NCBI GenBank assembly: GCA_023091735.1
Contig: JALKBU010000029.1
Location: 62,001 to 126,000, forward strand
DNA length: 64,000 nt
Direction of reading: 5' to 3'
Source: Trichomonas tenax
Taxonomy: Eukaryota; Parabasalia; Trichomonadida; Trichomonadidae
Of the stretch, positions 3,639-61,440 are shown in pieces. The notes under the pieces were generated by a model that was not told the DNA's origin, did not search any database, and saw nothing but the letters and a program-made list of their open reading frames with translations. Each line of letters opens with the position of its first letter. Position 1 is the first letter of the stretch. Both the position numbers and the translations under genes were made by a program.

Positions 3639-3717
3639 GGATAGGGAATACCTATCCCTAGCAATAATTTTTATTTGTAAATTATTCAATTTTTGATAGG
3701 CTGGGATAGTCTATCCC
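3639..3717. repeat. Two adjacent GGGATAG fold-backs
   Basis: GGGATAGG-GAATA-CCTATCCC (about 3639-3659) is a perfect 8-bp hairpin. About 45 bases further on, GGGATAG-T-CTATCCC (about 3703-3717) repeats the same arm. The four arms could pair in alternative ways. Confidence 0.55.
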
Positions 3718-5060
3718 ATCACAAAAGTAGAGTGATCTGACACATTATACTTACATGTCAAAAATGAGTGTTTTACATAAAGATAAATAAAACATGCATA
3801 ATTAAGGTTCATCTAATATTCTTTATAATGCACATTTTATTTTTCTAATCCCATTATTTGTCATTTGATAAAAATAAAAATTCCAAAAAGAAAATCACAT
3901 TTTTACGGTTCAAGATACGGGAAGGATAAGTTTTTACATCCCCAATACTTTGGGGAAAAGTGGGATCTATATTCTGATGAAAACAAACGATTTATTTTTT
4001 TCAAACATTTAAGAGGGACATAATGAAATCTGAATAATGACTTGGATTTTATAATTATTACATAATGAATGCTGATTGAGCAAATCGTTAAAATAGGCAT
4101 TTTCAATTTTTTTCATTCATTTTTGAAAAATGTTAGATTAAGGAGTATTACATAGTGAAAATGTTCCATATTATGAAAATATTTAATTTCAAATACTACC
4201 CAGTGAATTACATTAAAGTTTTTACTAAGATCTGATATGATAATTTATTTATATATTGCTTTAGTAGTTATAATTAAGCAGATGATTCCTTGTATGATAC
4301 TAATAACAATGAGAGAATTAAATTTACATGAATAAGCATAATCATCATTATTTTGTGAAAATCATCAGTAAAATTTCAACGTTTTGTTGGATTTGATTGA
4401 TTTTCTGTGTATGGAGGTGGTAGAATTCGACTGTATTTTGCGATTCTGCACTCAAATATGAGAAATTATTGTTTTTCGTGATTGAATAATTTTGGACCTA
4501 AAATTGTTAACGGTATGATAATATTTTTATTACAGAAGTGGATAGTGTATACAATTTATTCAGAGAACTTGAAGTCAAATTAATGATCATCGTATGAATT
4601 TTTGAGATATGAAGAAATTACATAATTTATGAGCTGATTTTTTGAAGTTTATTGGTACTCATGTATTGCATGGTATGCGTTAGTTCATGCGGAAAAGCCT
4701 CAGCTAGCAGTTTACATATGAGTTTGGGGGAAACAGCGTTGAACCATCCATTAAAAAATGAATCAGACAACATGACACGTAAACAACCAAAAAGGCAGGG
4801 GGAGTGGCTAAAGTATTGTGAAACTGGGTACTAAGTATTTTGTGCTCCATGATTCTAATTTCATAAGTTTCTTGATCTCCAAAGTAGAATAAATAATTCA
4901 TATAAATATTGTTTATCTATTACTCTCTTTTGAGTTGTTGGCAAAGTAAAATATTTACGTGACAAAAAATCCTCATTATGCATTTTTGAGTTATTCCTAA
5001 CTGTTTATAGGTTGGGAATAAATCAAAAAACATAAAAAATAAGTAGAGTAGTGATATTTG

Positions 5061-8337: not shown

Positions 8338-8388
8338 TCTGGCATCAACTATTCTCGACATTTGCTGCTCTGGAGAGCCTATGCCAGA
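8338..8388 (+). other. Diverged relative of the CTGGAGAGC hairpin
   Basis: TCTGGCAT (8338-8345) pairs perfectly with ATGCCAGA (8381-8388), and the loop carries CTCTGGAGAGCC. The arrangement matches the hairpin at 17531-17596, including one compensatory base-pair change. The second copy of the surrounding repeat (30537 on) has lost the left arm. Confidence 0.5.
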
Positions 8389-9031
8389 GGCTGATCATTG
8401 TTGATGATATTGTTTTTTGAAAAAAAAATCGACAGTTAATACTAATGACTGTGATGCTTGCATACTGTACCATTCAAATATCCAAAACCTGTTCTGCTTG
8501 ATGACAGACTGCTTGGAGCTATATTGAATGTTGATTTTTTAGGAAATTACGCAATTCGGGGTCATTTCTTCCAGGCGATCAAAGCACTGGATTTTTTACA
8601 AATAATTGTTTACGATCAAGACTCTTGAAGGGATTTTACATCATTTTACTAACTAGAATACGCTGCTTGTACTTAGAGAAACTGCTGAAGACCATAAAAT
8701 CACTCAAAAATCTCACATTTTTGTAATTCTGATGTATTTTTACATAAAATTCTAGATTTCGATTCAATGCTCCATGTTCTATACAGGTCTGGGCAATATG
8801 AATTGAAATATGGTTGACTATAATCATTATTAGAGATAGATAAAATTTAAATTAAATTTTCAAACGCTCAGATTTGATTGATTAGAATAGATACAGCATT
8901 CTGCACATGCGTATATCGATATATCTGTATATAATTTTCATCCCCTAAATATTGGATGCATCCCCTATTTAAATACAGTGTCGTCCACCATGTGTATCAC
9001 AGGCGTGATTTTCGAGGATTTTCGAAATACG
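8350..9031. repeat. Dispersed 680-bp repeat, copy 1
   Basis: Near-identical to 30537-31209. Similarity begins at TATTCTCGACATTTGC and ends near CGTGATTTTCGAAAT. The copies differ by scattered substitutions and a 10-base insertion/duplication near the right end. No terminal inverted repeats or target duplications were found. It includes the hairpin at 8756-8809. Confidence 0.85.
8756..8809 (+). other. Candidate RNA hairpin inside the dispersed repeat
   Basis: ATTTCGATTCAATGCTC (8756-8772) pairs with GGGCAATATGAATTGAAAT (8791-8809): 17 pairs with two single-base bulges and two G-U pairs, loop of 18. The same 54 bases are unchanged in the other copy (30943-30996), although the copies differ elsewhere. 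Confidence 0.5.
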
Positions 9032-15440: not shown

Positions 15441-17086
15441 TAAAGAAGTGTTTTAACTCTTAAATTTGGTTTTTAGCGACCAAAATTGGCAGGATTAGCA
15501 TTATCATTGTGTAAATGTTATAATAAACCATATTTTAAAAAGTGAATAAGGTTAAAAGTCACGTTTTTCACAATTTATTTGACACTGTTTACATTAATAA
15601 AATAGTATATATGATGTGAATTATTTTTCCATCGTTTATATTTTTGAATACTTTATTTTAATTAATCAATTTCAGCAAATTCATTGGGAAGCTATGAGTA
15701 TAAGTTGGTGTATCACATTAAAAACATGTAATGTGTGCATGCATCTATGCATATTGTCATCTCCGCAATGATTTCGTGTATTTATAAATTAAGATACTGA
15801 ACAATTATTCAATTAGGAGCTTGTATTATGTATTATTTGTAATATGCTACTATGTTGTCAGCATGTGATATATTTATAATAAATATTGCTATTTACTCAA
15901 TAATAAGCTGATATCAAATTGTTAATGAAAAATATGAAACAATATTATATGTTTAACACTACAACTATGTATGGCATCACATAAGAGTTATATTTGCCCA
16001 TACATGTTTGATCTGGTTCTGACCCCCAGAGTTGATACACTTCTATCATTAGAATTTATTTTATGATTTTATGTTTCATTTTTTATTTGTTATTATGGAT
16101 TGCTGTAATATGTAGATAATATATTACTGAACATAATGTACACATCATGATTGGATTGTTTACTTTTTTATCGATTTTCAATTTTATTATCATAATTAGA
16201 TTTAACGTAATATTTTGTCTATGTTTTTAATTTTTTTTTTTTTGAAAAATTATTTAAAAGGCCTTTTTCTTTGATAATCTATGAACTAAAATTTGCAAAC
16301 AGCGACTGGATTAGTGACATTTTGGGAAAGATATTAATTTTATGTTATGCTTTGTTATTATTTTACTATTTTAGAACGGATCACGGAAAATTTTGAATTT
16401 TTCTTTGTGATAATTTTTTGATAAAATAGAAAAATTGGAATTTTCGAATAATATTTTGAAACTAAAATATACTTAAATAGTTTAGCATATAAATAAAGTT
16501 ATGGACGTTAATTTTATATTTTTGAAATTTGATATCATATCATTTATAATATTATAAAATTATATAGCTCCTAACTCGCTTATTCAAATCACAGCTTCTT
16601 TCAACAATATAAAAGAATTATATAATTGTATCAAATACCCAGCTATTAAAAATATCATCGATTTGTCTTATTGTAGCTCAGGTATAGAATTATAAGACAT
16701 TTTGCTGAAATAAGGTAAATATTCCTTATTTTTTGATTAAATCAAAGGTGAAAATACTTCCCATTTCCCGAGAAGTTGGACTAATATTTAAAGTATATAT
16801 ATATCGCTATGAATTACTTTCAAACCTCGACTACCGCGTAATTTGTTCTTACGGGAGCCGAGAAAAAGAAGTTGAAATATTTATATTAAAATAGACATTT
16901 TTCTTTCTTTTTCATTTTTCAAGATTTTTTTGATGTTTGCTTAATTTTTAAATTGCTACATTAACTTCATTTTTGATATAGGTTATTATAGGCAAAACTA
17001 ATTTTTTGAGGAAATTTCAAAATTTTTCTCCAACTATTGATAATTTTGATAATTTTTGTACGTTATTAAAATCGATAATGCATTTT

Positions 17087-17155
17087 CTACTAGTTCTTCA
17101 CTGATTTGGAGGGATATCAATGAAAGTATTCCTCTAGCCAGTGAAGAACGAGTGG
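17087..17155 (+). other. Hairpin A1, candidate small-RNA precursor
   Basis: GTTCTTCACTG (17093-17103) pairs perfectly with CAGTGAAGAAC (17139-17149). The stem extends outward to 17087/17155 with one mismatch and inward through 17106-17116 with 17127-17137, four G-U pairs in all. The terminal loop is about 10 bases. About 29 pairs in a 69-nt fold. All imperfect pairs except one are G-U on the plus strand. Confidence 0.6.
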
Positions 17156-17276
17156 TTTGCCGTTATAAAATTCACAACTTCTTCGATATTCTTGCAATTA
17201 CATAATTAATAGCTATTCTTTGTATCCAATGGCTTTTTGACTGTTGGTACCATCGAAATTCGCTCAGAGCGTTCTG

Positions 17277-17384
17277 TTTCGATTTCATTTTACAATTTAA
17301 CATTTTCTACGGATATGTGAGGTTGCTAAGACATATTATGGCCTAGCAATCTCAGAGACTCGTAGAAAATGCTATGAATCGAAA
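17277..17384 (+). other. Hairpin A2, candidate small-RNA precursor
   Basis: Three nested stems: TTTCGATT...CAT (17277-17288) with ATGAATCGAAA (17374-17384); CATTTTCTACG (17301-17311) with CGTAGAAAATG (17361-17371), perfect over 11 bp; and GAGGTTGCTA (17319-17328) with TAGCAATCTC (17344-17353), one G-U. Total about 108 nt with internal loops. Confidence 0.6.
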
Positions 17385-17400
17385 TATTTCAATCATCAAT

Positions 17401-17502
17401 TTACAATACTTACTTTAGCTGTCTGATAGCATGACAAACAGATAGCTTGTGAGCACATGTTTGCAATGCTATTAGACAGCTAAAGCGATTTACGATTTGT
17501 AA
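17401..17502 (+). other. Hairpin A3, candidate small-RNA precursor
   Basis: CTTTAGCTGTCTGATAGCAT (17413-17432) pairs with ATGCTATTAGACAGCTAAAG (17466-17485), 20 pairs with a single G-U. Pairing continues inward to 17440/17458 after two mismatches. A six-base outer stem (17401-17406 with 17497-17502) closes an internal loop. Terminal loop about 17 bases. Confidence 0.65.
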
Positions 17503-17530
17503 TTATCTGCTAATAAATATCTTCAAAAAT

Positions 17531-17596
17531 GATCAAATTCTGGCACAAATTCACCATATATTCGATGTTCTGGAGAGCTTGTGCTAGAAATTGATC
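17531..17596 (+). other. Hairpin A4, member of the CTGGAGAGC hairpin family
   Basis: GATCAAATTCTGGCACAA (17531-17548) pairs with TTGTGCTAGAAATTGATC (17579-17596), 18 positions with one mismatch and one G-U. A second short stem (17550-17556 with 17571-17577) tops it. The CTGGAGAGC segment on the 3' side is shared with 8370-8379 and 30557 on. Confidence 0.6.
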
Positions 17597-18167
17597 AATG
17601 ATCATTATTGATGATATTTATTATTTTTGGACAAATTACCTACTCAGGCACAAGCAAACGCAAATATTACATCTACAGTGCCTAGATATTTGAGGCATAC
17701 CCTACATAATGAAGTATAGCGACTAACTATATTTCTAGATCCAATATTTTTGACAATTAACCTGCTTCTTGTCCATTTCCTCCAATGCAGACATGTAGAT
17801 GGCGATATGGAGAAGAAACATGTCAATTGCCAAAGATATTTCATTTTGAAAATAAGCAAATTAAATAAAAGTTATTGATTTTGCAATGATTTTATTGTAT
17901 GGGATAATTATAATATTAATATATGCAAATCAATATGATTTAAAATGAGAAAATGTTTTGACACTTTTCTTAACAATCCCAAATTATTTATTAATAAATA
18001 TCATAAATATAATAAACATCAATTATAACATTAATTTATGAGAGAAAAAATTTGAGAATAAATAATCATCGAGAGTAATGATAAAAATAAATAATAGAAT
18101 ACTATACTACATGATTCAAAAGATGTTTTTATTATGTTTTAAAGTCGAAATAAAGTGATTCTTAACT

Positions 18168-18420
18168 TTTGAAAATAGTACTAGAAACTATACAAATATC
18201 AGAATGACATAATGATTTAGTAAAAAAATTCTCTGAAATATTGAATGACGTAAAACAACAATATAATACATAAATAAAATGCAATATAACTAACACTTTT
18301 CGCAATTGCTCTCTCAATATATTCTATGAGTCAGATTATTGTATAGTTTACACAATAATACAAACATATTTATAATGATATAATAAGCATATTTATATTT
18401 CAGTGGTTTGCGTTTCAAAA
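18168..18420. repeat. Dispersed repeat of about 250 bp, copy 1
   Basis: Matches 27374-27650 over most of its length. The best-kept part contains CTCTCAATATATTCTATGAG, then TCAGATTATTGTATAGTTTA, then CAAACATATT. Identity is about 80-90% by eye in that part and lower toward the left. No coding content or ends with inverted repeats were seen. Confidence 0.7.
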
Positions 18421-18994
18421 TCTAAATTAAAGATTTCTCCTTTTGATTCATAGAAATGAAAATAATATCTTCGAACCCCCTGATATTTTTTATCAGACCC
18501 TATATTTATATTAAAAATGAAAGTGATTTTAAATCATCTGTTTCATCATGATTTATATGGAATTGAGAATCCCCTCTTTATTATATGATAAAATATCATG
18601 CATTCAATAATAATAATCATAAGAATATAAAAACTGATATCAATTCAATAAAGCAAAATAAATCGTTTTCAGAAATGGATGTATTCTAAGACCCCCTTTC
18701 TAAATGAGTCATACCCCAAAAAGATAAAATAATCTTATTTAATCATAAAACAGTGAAAATATACAGGAATATTATAGTCGATGTCATTTATCCATAATAA
18801 TACAATAAACTTAAAATTGATGAAAAATGCCTAATCCAATAAGCGGAGTATCAAAAACTAATCCGAAAGATATAAGGAAACAAAATGATGTTTCAATAAG
18901 TCTCAATACTAAACTTAAAAAAAAAAATTAAAAAATTTTTTGTTGACTCGTTAGAATCAACTCCAGACTATAAATCAACTAAAATTGTACTAAT

Positions 18995-27246: not shown

Positions 27247-27373
27247 GCGTTTGAATTGGTATAAAACTATTGAGAGAAAAAATAAAAATCAAAATAAATA
27301 ATAATATATTATTAGATGCCAATTTGCATATGATTTTATTATGCTTTTGAGAAAAAATAAAATCCATTTGAAT

Positions 27374-27650
27374 TTTACAAAATAGTACTAGAAAAGATGC
27401 AAATATCAGAATTACGCAATGCTTAAGTATACAACTTTTGAATGCACACAAAAAGTGGACACAAATATTGAATGATGTAAAACTACCATATATTGTATCT
27501 ATAATATTCAACATAAATCATCCAATTCGCAAAAGCTCTCTCAATATATTCTATAAGTCAGATTATTGTATAGTTTACACAAAAATACAAACATATTTTT
27601 AATGATATAATAAGTATATTTACATTGCGGCGGTTTGCCCTTCAAAATTT
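27374..27650. repeat. Dispersed repeat of about 250 bp, copy 2
   Basis: Counterpart of 18168-18420, best matched in its right half (CTCTCAATATATTCTATAAG and following). Confidence 0.7.
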
Positions 27651-28146
27651 GAAAAAACTCAGAAATGTCATTTGCGTTATTTGGAATATATATCATATAT
27701 CTAACAATATATTTTCGAACTTAAAACAGTAACTTTTTTCATCTTTTCCCTTCTTTCCCAGGTTCAAGCACATATGATTGATACATTCGAATTATGAAGA
27801 TACTGTATATTCTCACACACACCCTTGAATATAACCCTACAATAACTAACTATAATATCCACATTTTATTTTATTTATATTTATCTCGCATAATGTATAC
27901 TTTTTATAAGTTTAATAGCATTTACCACATGATTAGAATATGATTATGCAATAAAAATATTTTTCTAACTTTAAACTTGACATGTGTCAAAAAATTATTT
28001 TACGCGTCATTTATTATATTTTACACGTCAATCTGTCAAAATATCAAATTCTCTATATTTTAACATAACGATGACTCCAATACGATTTTTATTATCATTT
28101 TACTGCAATTAGCCTTATAAACATATAATTATTCTTCATTTGCAAT

Positions 28147-28237
28147 TCTTTGTTATATAGTCATCCTCTTGTTGCTGAAATCACAAAACAACATTTTGTG
28201 TGACTTCTACACTGTGAAGATGACTAGATAACAAAGA
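28147..28237 (+). other. Hairpin B1, candidate small-RNA precursor
   Basis: TCTTTGTTATATAGTCATC (28147-28165) pairs with GATGACTAGATAACAAAGA (28219-28237), 19 positions with one mismatch. An inner TCACAAAA / TTTTGTGTGA stem adds to the fold. Confidence 0.6.
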
Positions 28238-28273
28238 TATTGACGACATTTTGAAATTCACTCCAGATGTAAG

Positions 28274-28326
28274 TGATATGCCAATGGTTCTGTGGCACAA
28301 TATTCCACAGAACAATTGGCATATCA
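28274..28326 (+). other. Hairpin B2, candidate small-RNA precursor
   Basis: 28274-28295 pairs with 28305-28326: 22 positions with a single mismatch and a nine-base loop CACAATATT. The arms contain GATATGCCAA and TTGGCATATC. Outer pairing can extend a few bases either side. Confidence 0.65.
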
Positions 28327-28379
28327 ATTACACCTGTAAAAACAACATTCCAATCAGATAATTTAATGCTCTTAAAAAA

Positions 28380-28466
28380 GTTGTGTTTCATGCAATAATC
28401 ACATGATAATGTACTAGCACAACTACAGTGTAACATTGTCACTGTGATTATTGCATGAAACACAAC
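28380..28466 (+). other. Hairpin B3, candidate small-RNA precursor
   Basis: 28380-28402 and 28444-28466 are perfect reverse complements over 23 bp (arms begin GTTGTGTTTCATGC and end GCATGAAACACAAC). Pairing continues inward (28405-28412 with 28433-28440), leaving a loop of about 20 bases. Confidence 0.7.
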
Positions 28467-28478
28467 ATTTGTTCAAAT

Positions 28479-28582
28479 TTCGAGATTCTCTTGTTTTTCT
28501 GTGCTAGTGCAGCATTGGAACATAGAAATGAAATAGCTAGTCACAATGCTGCATTGGCACAAAAAAACGAGAGAATCTCGAA
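28479..28582 (+). other. Hairpin B4, candidate small-RNA precursor
   Basis: 28479-28517 pairs with 28544-28582: 39 positions with one A-C mismatch and three G-U pairs on the plus strand, loop of 26. The outer arms are TTCGAGATTCTC and GAGAATCTCGAA, the inner arms GCAGCATTG and CAATGCTGC. This is the longest near-perfect fold in the window. Confidence 0.7.
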
Positions 28583-28606
28583 TGTTATCAATTATCTGAA
28601 TTTTTT

Positions 28607-28701
28607 AAAGTTGTTTCCATTGCAAAATACACAGAGGAAAAGCCATTTGAGAGTGATTGCAATGGCCTTTCCACAGTGTATGTGGCAATAGAAACAACTT
28701 T
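28607..28701 (+). other. Hairpin B5, candidate small-RNA precursor
   Basis: 28607-28647 pairs with 28661-28701: 35 of 41 positions pair, with mismatches spread singly; loop of 13. Outer arms AAAGTTGTTTC and GAAACAACTTT. Confidence 0.65.
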
Positions 28702-30536
28702 CACTCGAATATCGAAATAAAATTTTAATAATGCGCTCTAAAGTTGATTTGTGTTGAATAAATAGTATTTCATACACGGGATATCCCATATTTGCAATTT
28801 TATAGTTTATTTTCAAATCTGACGTATTTGCTTACATCGCATCACATTACGCGTCAAATATCAGATGTCAGAAAATATTTTGGTGTGTTAATATCTCATT
28901 TTTGAATTAAGAAGTCACCTCACCAACAGTGCAGAACAATTACATAAGTATGTTAGTATCTATGTGTACAGAAAAACACGCTTTTTGTTTGTGATATTTG
29001 GATCGATTGAAAATGATTTTCCAGAATCGACAAATGAATATATGTTATAGAATTACATGGCATAGAGATATGCTGTGACAAGTTTGAGCATGAACTGCCT
29101 TCAGGTGAAAAAGTTAGAAAAAACGCTCTATAACTCGTCTACTATAGCATTCCATGACTGCGCTCTAAGATATGCTATTATATGGGCTTATACATGTATC
29201 ATTATATGCAGATTGAAGAATAAAAATCTAATTTTAGGTGAAATTACTTACTTTTTAAAAAACATTCCTAAAAGACAAGAAAGCACACACGTATGAATAT
29301 GATACGATATAAAACTACTAAATTCCGCAAATTGGAGATTTTCGTCTTAAATAATATATCAAATTTTTCAGACGTGGTCAATTTGCCGAAAGCATGATCA
29401 ATATATTAAACACACTATATATGTGCTCTGATATAAATAGTATAGTCTCAAGCGCTCAATGGCCTTTTTTATGCGACAAATAATTCACAATTTATACGGC
29501 AGAACAACGAACGAGTGAACTTTGTACTGAAGCAACTCGTTATAACTACACAGTGTGATAAATACAAAAAAACATATATATATATATATATTATACATAA
29601 CTAATTCTCCACAATAACCAACTCATGAGTCTGGAGATAATTCTCTTTACATATTCAAAAGCTTCACTTTTTACCACATCAAGCTAAACTAACTCCTCAA
29701 ACGACAGATATCAACCAATAAAACATCCATAATACAAATGCATAGGATATATTGTAATCAGATATATACTAAAGAGTATAAAAATAAAAAAAATTATCTG
29801 AATTATTTAATATCTTTCATGTTTCATGAAATCGCAGTTTGATAATACTATAAGTATGATGTATATATCTCTTGCATTGTTAAAAGTCTCCGCAGACATC
29901 TTTTTTGTGCACTTCAGAAAGTTGATGCGCTTCACATACGGGAAGCATATGAGATGGCAAACTAGCTACAGAAGCACAACAATCAATATACACGCATATA
30001 ATACACAGTGCAACTCTCTTGCGAACATATTATACCATATGTGTAGTTTCTCAAATGTATTACACACCTATAAAATATGTTGTTTAGTGAACGCATCATT
30101 GAAAAACGCTTTGAGTATGAAATCTACTAAAACTTCATAAAGAGCAAATATCACAACATGATACACTTACATCAGTGATGCCAAGATATAGAAAAACAAT
30201 CGTACACAGTTATATTTAAATTTACGCATATTTTGTGAAATGCAATATAGATTAAATATAAAAAATATGCAATTGAATGACATCCACATTCTAAAACACA
30301 AATACACATCTAGTTCTATTCAAAACCACTCAAACTAGTTCATAACCCCCTGTATCTTCATAAAATATATTCTTTGCATTACGCATGTTTTTGTAATGCC
30401 TGTGTTTTACACCATTAATATATGCGCATACGTATGCCGAATATAATTGTATACTTCCTACACATAGATAACATACTTTTGCAAATAAAAATCACAAAAT
30501 ACTGATCTTTGTCACTTTTAGTGACTCCAAATGGAG

Positions 30537-31209
30537 TATTCTCGACATTTGCTTCTCTGGAGAGCCTATGCCAGAGGCTGATCATTTTTGATGATATTGT
30601 TTTTTGAAACAAAAAATCGACAGTTAATACTAATGACTGTGATGCTTGCATACTGTAGCATTCAAATATCCAAAACCTGTTCTGCTCGATGACAGACTGC
30701 TTGGAGCTATATTGAATGCTGATTTTTAGGAAATTACGCAATTCGGGGTCATTTCTTCCAGGCGATCAAAGCACTGGATTTTTTACAAATAATTGTTTAC
30801 GATCAAGGCTCTTGAAGGGATTTTACATCATTTTACTAACTAGAATACGCTGCTTGTACTTAGAGAAACTGCTGAAGACCATAAAATCACTCAAAAATCT
30901 CACATTTTTGCAATTTTGATGTATTTTTACATAAACATCTAGATTTCGATTCAATGCTCCATGTTCTATACAGGTCTGGGCAATATGAATTGAAATATAG
31001 TTGACTATAATCATTATTAGAGATAGATAAAATTTAAATTAAATTTTCAAACGCTCAGATTTGATTGATTAGAATAGATACAGCATTCTGCACATGCATA
31101 TATCGATATATCTGTATATAATTTTCATCCCCTAAATATTGGATGCATCCCCTATTTAAAGACAGTGTCGTCCACCATGTGTATCACAGGCGTGATTTTC
31201 GAAATGCGT
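30537..31209. repeat. Dispersed 680-bp repeat, copy 2
   Basis: Near-identical to 8350-9031. It includes an unchanged copy of the 54-nt hairpin (30943-30996) but lacks the left arm of the CTGGAGAGC hairpin. Confidence 0.85.
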
Positions 31210-47728: not shown

Positions 47729-48353
47729 TTTTTAAAAATTACCAAGAAATAAAATTATCACCAATTCTTCACTTTTTGAAATTCACTTTGACACTTTACA
47801 ATATATTTTGACATTTTACAATAAATATAGAAGTGGAACAACCTAAAATTTGAATACTTTGAATGTTCTATTGCTTTTAAATACTATTGTGATGCTATAA
47901 ACGACTTTTTAATCTAGGTACTCCTCTCAATTTTTTCAAGGGGTCCTCCTCAATATTGTGAGGAACACGCCCGTAGAGTACCTAGATTTAAAAATGTAGT
48001 TTACACCAAATATTAGAGCTTGGGATTTTACAAAAACCATAAAAAGTATTGAAATGAAGCGAATAGTATTTCCTTTATGTACATAATGTGTAGATCCTGG
48101 ATATATGGTCAGAATTTTGCCCTTTTTCTGACAGCCGATAGCGTATAAATTGTAAACTTAAGTGTCGGATTCTTTGAAAGTGCTAAGATTTCCACCCGGG
48201 AGCACATTTTGAAGTCTTTCATCGATGGATGTGCCTCTTATTTATAAACAATTTTGACACTTTACAAAAATGTAAAGAGTAAATGACAAATTTCAAATAA
48301 ATTTCATACTTTACAAAAATTAATATGTCAAAAATAACAAAAAATAAAACGGA
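47729..48353. other. Divergent intergenic region, ankyrin / FOP-LisH genes
   Basis: Contains two TTGACA-TTTTACA motif copies near 47785-47820, the hairpin at 47906-47994, a smaller hairpin GTCAGAA/TTCTGAC near 48110-48135, and TTTTGACACTTTACAAAAATG near 48250 plus TATGTCAAAAAT near 48323-48335. The motifs lie on both sides, as expected for two promoters. Confidence 0.5.
47906..47994 (+). other. Single long hairpin in divergent promoter region
   Basis: AATCTAGGTACTC (47911-47923) pairs perfectly with GAGTACCTAGATT (47976-47988), extended outward by TTTTT/AAAAA past a one-base bulge. Inner stems GGG/CCC (47941-47943 with 47970-47972) and TCCTC/GAGGA (47944-47948 with 47960-47964) complete the fold. 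Confidence 0.55.
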
Positions 48354-61250: not shown

Positions 61251-61310
61251 TAAAAGAAACTTTTTTTCAAAAAAACCGGAAATTAAAATTTTTGCGTATT
61301 CAAATTTGAA
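61251..61310 (+). repeat. Solo copy of the element's inverted repeat (copy 1)
   Basis: Starts TAAAAGAAACTTTTTTTC and ends TTTTTGCGTATTCAAATTTGAA. It is an inverted copy of 61361-61426 and lies in the same direction as 61758-61835. Confidence 0.85.
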
Positions 61311-61360
61311 GGTTAAAAAATGATATTATATTTCCACTTTTTGAGCGTCATTCTTTGACA

Positions 61361-61440
61361 TTCAAATTTGAATACGCAAAAATTATATTTTTCATTTCCG
61401 GTTTTATGAAAAAAAGTTTCTTTTTAAATGTGGTGATTCA
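61361..61440 (-). repeat. Terminal inverted repeat, left (copy 2)
   Basis: Reverse complement of copy 3 over about 78 bases, including GTGGTGA at its inner edge and TTCAAATTTGAATACGC at its outer edge. Confidence 0.8.

Follow-up and report, generated by a model that had tools for sequence, protein, structure and literature searches.

A dispersed multi-hairpin repeat of Trichomonas tenax whose stems are probably re-perfected by copying between hairpin arms

Polycistronic microRNA clusters and hpRNA loci consist of clustered, precursor-size stem-loops with different arms, and fold-back or MITE-type non-autonomous repeats are non-coding, dispersed and built of inverted repeats. At rRNA and microRNA hairpins, template switching has been reported to leave three footprints, namely compensatory changes that span several bases, Watson-Crick stems that are almost perfect, and inverted loops (PNAS 2022, PMC8794818). 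Among trichomonads, ~34-nt piRNA-like small RNAs have been reported from T. vaginalis (PMC7845603), for which the reported level of miRNA reads is 0.0046% (PMC7844918), and three miRNA candidates have been reported from T. gallinae (PMC3995805).

The Trichomonas tenax repeat described here shows the same three footprints as the template-switch hairpins in the accessible part of PMC8794818, but its hairpins are long (28-42 nt arms), stand in arrays on a dispersed repeat and are found inverted as whole units. With microRNA clusters and hpRNA loci it shares clustered stem-loops with different arms, in a genome that has Argonaute and Dicer-like genes; unlike them, it is multicopy and dispersed, its individual loci give no indication of constraint at the RNA level, and its arm sequence is not especially conserved. 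Like fold-back and MITE-type repeats it is non-coding, dispersed and made of inverted repeats, whereas it combines many hairpins in one long unit, and no terminal inverted repeats were seen by eye at its ends. The piRNA-like clusters of T. vaginalis come from the same clade and share a PIWI-type Argonaute and a link to repeats, but a multi-hairpin repeat is not described in the accessible part of that report (PMC7845603). A literature search on such a repeat likewise found no paper, as far as the accessible parts of the publications go.

The window, i.e. the whole 64,000-nucleotide stretch that was analysed, contains two hairpin arrays, A and B. A reading made earlier from the sequence only had described array B as five long, different fold-backs resembling a precursor cluster of the microRNA type, and a hairpin search of the window recovered all five at 28143-28701, with the same pair figures for B4 and B5. 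In the following list, G-U pairs are included among the paired arm positions.

28143..28242, + strand: hairpin B1, arms 28147-28188 and 28196-28237, 34 of 42 arm positions paired, short loop; both orientations among copies
28264..28336, + strand: hairpin B2, 29 of 32 positions paired; both orientations among copies
28376..28470, + strand: hairpin B3, 27 of 28 positions paired, long loop; inversion not found; four adjacent double changes (one run) in one subfamily
28479..28582, + strand: hairpin B4, 38 of 39 positions paired; inversion not found
28607..28701, + strand: hairpin B5, 35 of 41 positions paired; inversion not found

The scores of B1 to B5 (24.1, 26.9, 33.2, 36.9 and 28.6) all exceed the maximum of 19.8 obtained over five first-order-Markov sequences of 64 kb each. 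Gaps of 8-39 bases separate the hairpins, the arms of which differ from one another as had been claimed. RNA folding of 28140-28710 gave -236.2 kcal/mol on the + strand, where shuffled sequences averaged -120.7 (z -18.8), and a z of -20.6 on the - strand; none of 100 shuffles was equally low on either strand. The array is intergenic, as previously stated, with no ORF of at least 150 aa between 26667 and 31338, and presents the precursor-size stem-loops within one intergenic block that are expected of a microRNA cluster. An Rfam scan of the window returned one tRNA and no match on arrays A or B.

Homology searches, conducted against the genome from which the window comes (53.4 Mb in 1528 contigs), returned 65 first-look candidates for array B, 40 of which were scored; among the scored places, matches covering most of the query were 73-92% identical. 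For array A, 222 first-look candidates were found and 40 scored. Many copies lie in unrelated flanks, as is typical of a dispersed mobile repeat: the flanks of 23 compared loci are mostly without homology to one another, and the ORFs surrounding 26 repeat loci are diverse. The sequence-only reading had itself named genome-wide dispersal of the same arms as an outcome that would refute a small-RNA cluster, and this is what was found. A unique microRNA cluster was therefore dropped, and the statement that the array is not one repeat amplified has to be corrected, since the entire array-B block is a dispersed repeat. Single-arm matches were also considered as RNAi targets and rejected; the three stretches opened, at L062, L063 and L064, are other copies of the repeat, and further such matches lie on C977 and C1106.

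Arrays A and B lie ~1.5-1.7 kb apart on one strand on contigs C1362, C44 and C1087. Window positions 18068-18421 are homologous to 27269-27648, which we refer to as the linker, so that the window contains two broken copies of the repeat:

16740..18421, + strand: array-A repeat copy, comprising array A and a portion of the linker; copy L040 is homologous from 16740 onwards and L011 from 16744
17087..17155, + strand: first hairpin of array A, score 20.5, barely above the chance maximum
17211..17252, + strand: hairpin A0, 3' arm only, the 5' arm being retained in other copies
17287..17387, + strand: hairpin A1
17413..17485, + strand: hairpin A2
17511..17623, + strand: hairpin A3
17728..17854, + strand: hairpin A4
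27261..30543, + strand: array-B repeat copy (linker, array B and tail), left-truncated at ~27261, right end at 30543-30555

The hairpins of array A (17087-17854) score 20.5-26.2. With default scoring, homology of the array-A copy to seven other copies ends at 18401-18426, inside the linker, and position 18421 corresponds to 27648 in the array-B copy. No ORF of at least 150 aa was found inside the latter. Pieced together from these two copies, the full unit would measure ~4.6 kb and consist of a left end, array A, the linker, array B and a tail. A further subfamily is represented by 12 near-full-length matches of at least 88% identity to L063, L063 itself included. In one subfamily (L038 3736-4638, L039 3647-4547), the sequence ceases to be homologous to the window at ~28388, beyond B2, and is continued by other hairpins with scores of 19-40. 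Judged by eye, deletions or truncations in L025, L046, L016, L064 and L062 and at window position 17211 (where the 5' arm of A0 is absent) stop at the base, an arm or the loop of a hairpin, and the hairpins look as if they were break or skip points.

The window and 39 other loci made up an aligned set of 40 copies, 18 of which are full-length (alignment A1). In these 18, 82 of 90 hairpin slots score at least 15. Ten copies retain all five B hairpins at this level in the same order and spacing, and the eight others show single losses (B1 in L022, L024, L029 and L030, B2 in L023 and L046, B3 in L025, B4 in L035). B1 pairing is gone in all three copies of the subfamily formed by L024, L029 and L030, and some copies score far above the window, such as L025 for B1 (50.4) and L046 for B3 (47.5). 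One order and spacing in so many copies, together with the recurrence of the A-linker-B order on several contigs, contradicts a chance landing of independent small fold-back (MITE-like) elements side by side, which we regard as very improbable even though each hairpin alone resembles such an element. The earlier alternative of small fold-back elements nevertheless came closer to the outcome than the microRNA cluster, missing that the unit is a long multi-hairpin repeat.

Between subfamilies, the B stems remain paired via double changes. At least two Watson-Crick types, each present in at least two of the 18 copies, occur at 31 of 182 B pairs, compared with 3-7 when partners are slid, and the covariation score of 0.164 exceeds both slid (0.049-0.062) and shuffled (0.109) controls, with 0 of 500 shuffles reaching it. 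The excess of pairs changed on both sides is weak (46 vs 38.9, reached by 12 of 500 shuffles), and further pair types show no excess over shuffles in this test (129 vs 128.3). RNAalifold predicted 93 pairs from the array-B alignment, 30 of them changed on both sides, and the 645 subfamily-majority pairs comprise 576 Watson-Crick, 16 G-U, 18 A-C and 35 other pairs. In comparisons that are not independent of one another, 18 adjacent double changes were counted between subfamilies where 5.3 were expected, and 34 of 57 double changes are of the transversion type. Such clustered, transversion-type double changes do not fit passage through G-U, and runs of double changes that preserve Watson-Crick pairing are a footprint of template switching.

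A transcript under selection is expected to tolerate G-U pairs and not A-C mismatches. No G-U preference over A-C was detected in array B (164 vs 182, 18 copies), in the own-fold stems of 132 hairpins (221 vs 262) or in array A (54 vs 82), and departures within subfamilies were about evenly divided between G-U (88) and A-C (84) in 29 of the 40 copies. The slight A-C excess on the + strand equals a slight G-U excess on the - strand. With G-U about equal to A-C, the RNA-level pairing expected of a microRNA cluster is not seen, and covariation as proof of RNA function was dropped.

Rates of divergence were compared in the closest four copies, in which stems (0.090) exceed flanks (0.060-0.074) and the commonest changes in the stems and the right flank are C>T and G>A. 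Because the stems are richer in G+C, we read their higher divergence as 'not constrained' rather than 'accelerated'. Over the 18 copies, identity is 0.780 in stems, 0.663 in loops, 0.792 in spacers and 0.84 just outside the array; the arms are not more conserved than the flanks, although stems do exceed loops. Judging from these alignments, what is kept among the copies is pairing and not arm sequence.

Two of the B hairpins, B1 and B2, occur in inverted orientation. For B2, L029 matches L024 at 54 of 73 positions directly and at 63 of 73 when inverted, and L024 and L030, both close relatives of L029, match each other at 64 of 73 directly; for B1, L039 and L048 agree at 76 of 101 positions directly and at 90 of 101 when inverted. 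Inversion of a hairpin between close relatives is a further footprint of template switching. An orientation fit assigned the inverted state to 9 of 31 B1 copies and 11 of 34 B2 copies, and to none of the copies of B3 (0/27), B4 (0/28) and B5 (0/21; 0/76 together). Orientation changed at least three times for B1 and at least twice for B2 on a tree built from the same sequences, hairpins included. Copy pairs that match better inverted by at least 8 number 58 of 465 for B1, 25 of 561 for B2 and 4 of 939 for B3-B5 together. Shuffle p-values are small in both orientations for several copy pairs because the hairpin cores are partly palindromic; inverted similarity alone is thus not decisive, and we rely on the difference between direct and inverted matches. 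The inversion of a hairpin is a DNA-level or reverse-transcription-level event.

In array A, two well-supported Watson-Crick types were found at 0/91 base pairs of the stems (14 copies), and loop inversion in A1-A3 was found in 0/91 copy pairs for each hairpin, so the evidence for compensatory change and whole-hairpin inversion comes from array B alone. The A0 loop core, as judged by eye, reads CTATT in some copies and its reverse complement AATAG in others.

Covariation with no G-U preference, hairpins that do not diverge more slowly, runs of double changes and inversions are together better accounted for by template switching or arm exchange than by selection on RNA at each locus. We consider it probable that the stems of this dispersed multi-hairpin repeat are re-perfected in the propagating lineage and decay in single copies. 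The non-coding repeat, pieced together at ~4.6 kb with arrays A and B, has spread through the trichomonad genome, and in its propagating lineage the two arms of a hairpin would repeatedly be copied from one another, either by template switching at the hairpin or by arm-to-arm recombination, while DNA is replicated or RNA reverse-transcribed. Such copying would re-perfect the stem and occasionally flip a loop or a whole hairpin. Inserted single copies would then decay without visible constraint, as is seen for the close copies, in which decay is strand-blind and shows no extra constraint. As correction was not seen to keep pace in these close copies, we infer that it acts mainly in the propagating lineage. 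The flipping of hairpins whose arms still match speaks for arm-to-arm copying in DNA over a fixed set of small-RNA genes. As a counterpoint, the hairpins have kept fixed places across ~25% divergence; random correction by itself would not necessarily achieve this, and some selection in the source lineage might be required.

Compensatory base changes usually count as proof that an RNA is functional, and covariation that is better explained by DNA copying calls for caution in covariation-based RNA gene finding. The 40 aligned copies in one genome are also well suited to testing template switching and the birth of new hairpin (small-RNA-like) loci.

As for its mode of spread, the repeat might be a retroposon, its RNA being copied by the genome's LINE-type reverse transcriptase and the arm copying representing template switching by that enzyme. 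This reading is compatible with arm-to-arm copying and is possible, if on the doubtful side. The genome contains 13 RVT_1 matches, 12 of them over the cut-off and two adjacent on C821. One LINE-type remnant abuts an array-A copy at ~1720 of L037 and another lies ~1.2 kb from an array-B copy on C862. The remnant at ~900-1744 of L037 (- strand), a broken LINE-type reverse transcriptase, and the left end of the array-A copy are arranged head to head; the remnant was rejected as part of the same element, as the LINE matches end at query position 997 and nearly all A matches begin at or after 1021 (one at 1016). That the LINE and A matches are separate repeats weighs against a retroposon. The ends of the repeat bear on both sides of the question. 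Left ends vary among copies, and six close array-B copies, the window included, have related right ends, which in this group resembles the 5' truncation and common 3' end of a LINE-mobilised retroposon. In the window, the right end comes just after a GTCACTTTTAGTGAC..CAAATGG motif (30511-30536), variants of which stand at the right end of the five other close copies, with one of two short endings behind them; when at most 3 mismatches are allowed, the 26-base form has 8 occurrences genome-wide. However, the stretches fetched from other subfamilies did not show a common right end, and no clear target-site duplications were found at the examined ends of close copies.

Alternatively, the arrays could be RNA genes, i.e. 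transcribed multi-hairpin precursors in which pairing is selected on the RNA and which were multiplied by duplication, as sources of hpRNAs or of siRNA- or piRNA-type RNAs and less likely of miRNAs. We consider this rather unlikely. Strong folding on both strands and covariation above slid and shuffled controls are in its favour, as are motifs at fixed positions upstream of array B, which had been pointed out before:

27999..28030, + strand: two TTTACRCGTCA motifs, starting at 27999 and 28020, upstream of array B

In 12 of 23 copies, the 250 bp that precede B contain at least one exact TTTACRCGTCA, located at ~-80 to -105; this suggests transcription and is a counterpoint to arm-to-arm copying. 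With one mismatch, the motif occurs 10 times in the window where 1.8 are expected, three of the ten within the repeat. Motifs so placed, and commoner than expected, make transcription plausible. The Argonaute- and Dicer-like proteins invoked for trichomonads have counterparts here: one ORF in the genome has PAZ and Piwi domains (PIWI-type Argonaute) and is closest to animal Piwi structures, and one has two RNase III domains and most resembles the structures of Drosha and further RNase III enzymes, the Giardia Dicer included. Processing of hairpin RNA is thus possible, as is the entry of hairpin RNA from the repeat into RNAi, and the ~34-nt piRNA-like small RNAs of T. vaginalis (PMC7845603) count in favour of RNA genes. 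As fits a trichomonad, a DENN protein is 68% identical to T. vaginalis TVAG_272300.

Against RNA genes stand the lack of a G-U preference on the + strand, with only a slight one on the - strand, stems that diverge no more slowly than flanks, stems and loops with lower conservation than the sequence bordering the array, the inverted hairpins, the loss of B1 pairing in L024, L029 and L030 and the miRNA reads of only 0.0046% reported for T. vaginalis (PMC7844918). What stood of the microRNA-type cluster are the clustered stem-loops and the possibility of processing; dispersed arms, the lack of a G-U preference and hairpins that are no slower than their flanks do not agree with it. A combination of both ideas, in which a mobile non-coding element with ~10 hairpins rebuilt as perfect duplexes at each copying would feed fresh, subfamily-drifting dsRNA into a PIWI/Dicer-type pathway, appears unlikely.

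A separate, young dispersed repeat of ~660 bp is present in the window at 30544-31202 (+) and 8350-9015 (+), and its left end coincides with the right end of the array-B copy or is at most ~10 bases away from it. It gave 73 first-look candidates, 40 of which were scored, with identities of about 87-98%; most matches share one right end and have varying left ends, as after 5' truncation. Its first ~50 bases (30544-30600) resemble the loop and 3' arm of A3 (17511-17623 in the window) in other copies, mostly at 72-84%, a likeness that may reflect either a common origin or a relation of guide and target. Among the listed A3 hairpins, the match spans loop, 3' arm and 5' arm over 30-64 nt at 68-84%; A3 arms as guides against the ~660-bp repeat were therefore rejected, and the match may be due to shared ancestry. 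Outside both arrays, two hairpins score just over the chance maximum (47893-48008, score 20.1; 3667-3784, score 20.5), and a single long hairpin at 61278-61393 has 44-nt arms that are 89% complementary (score 36.2).
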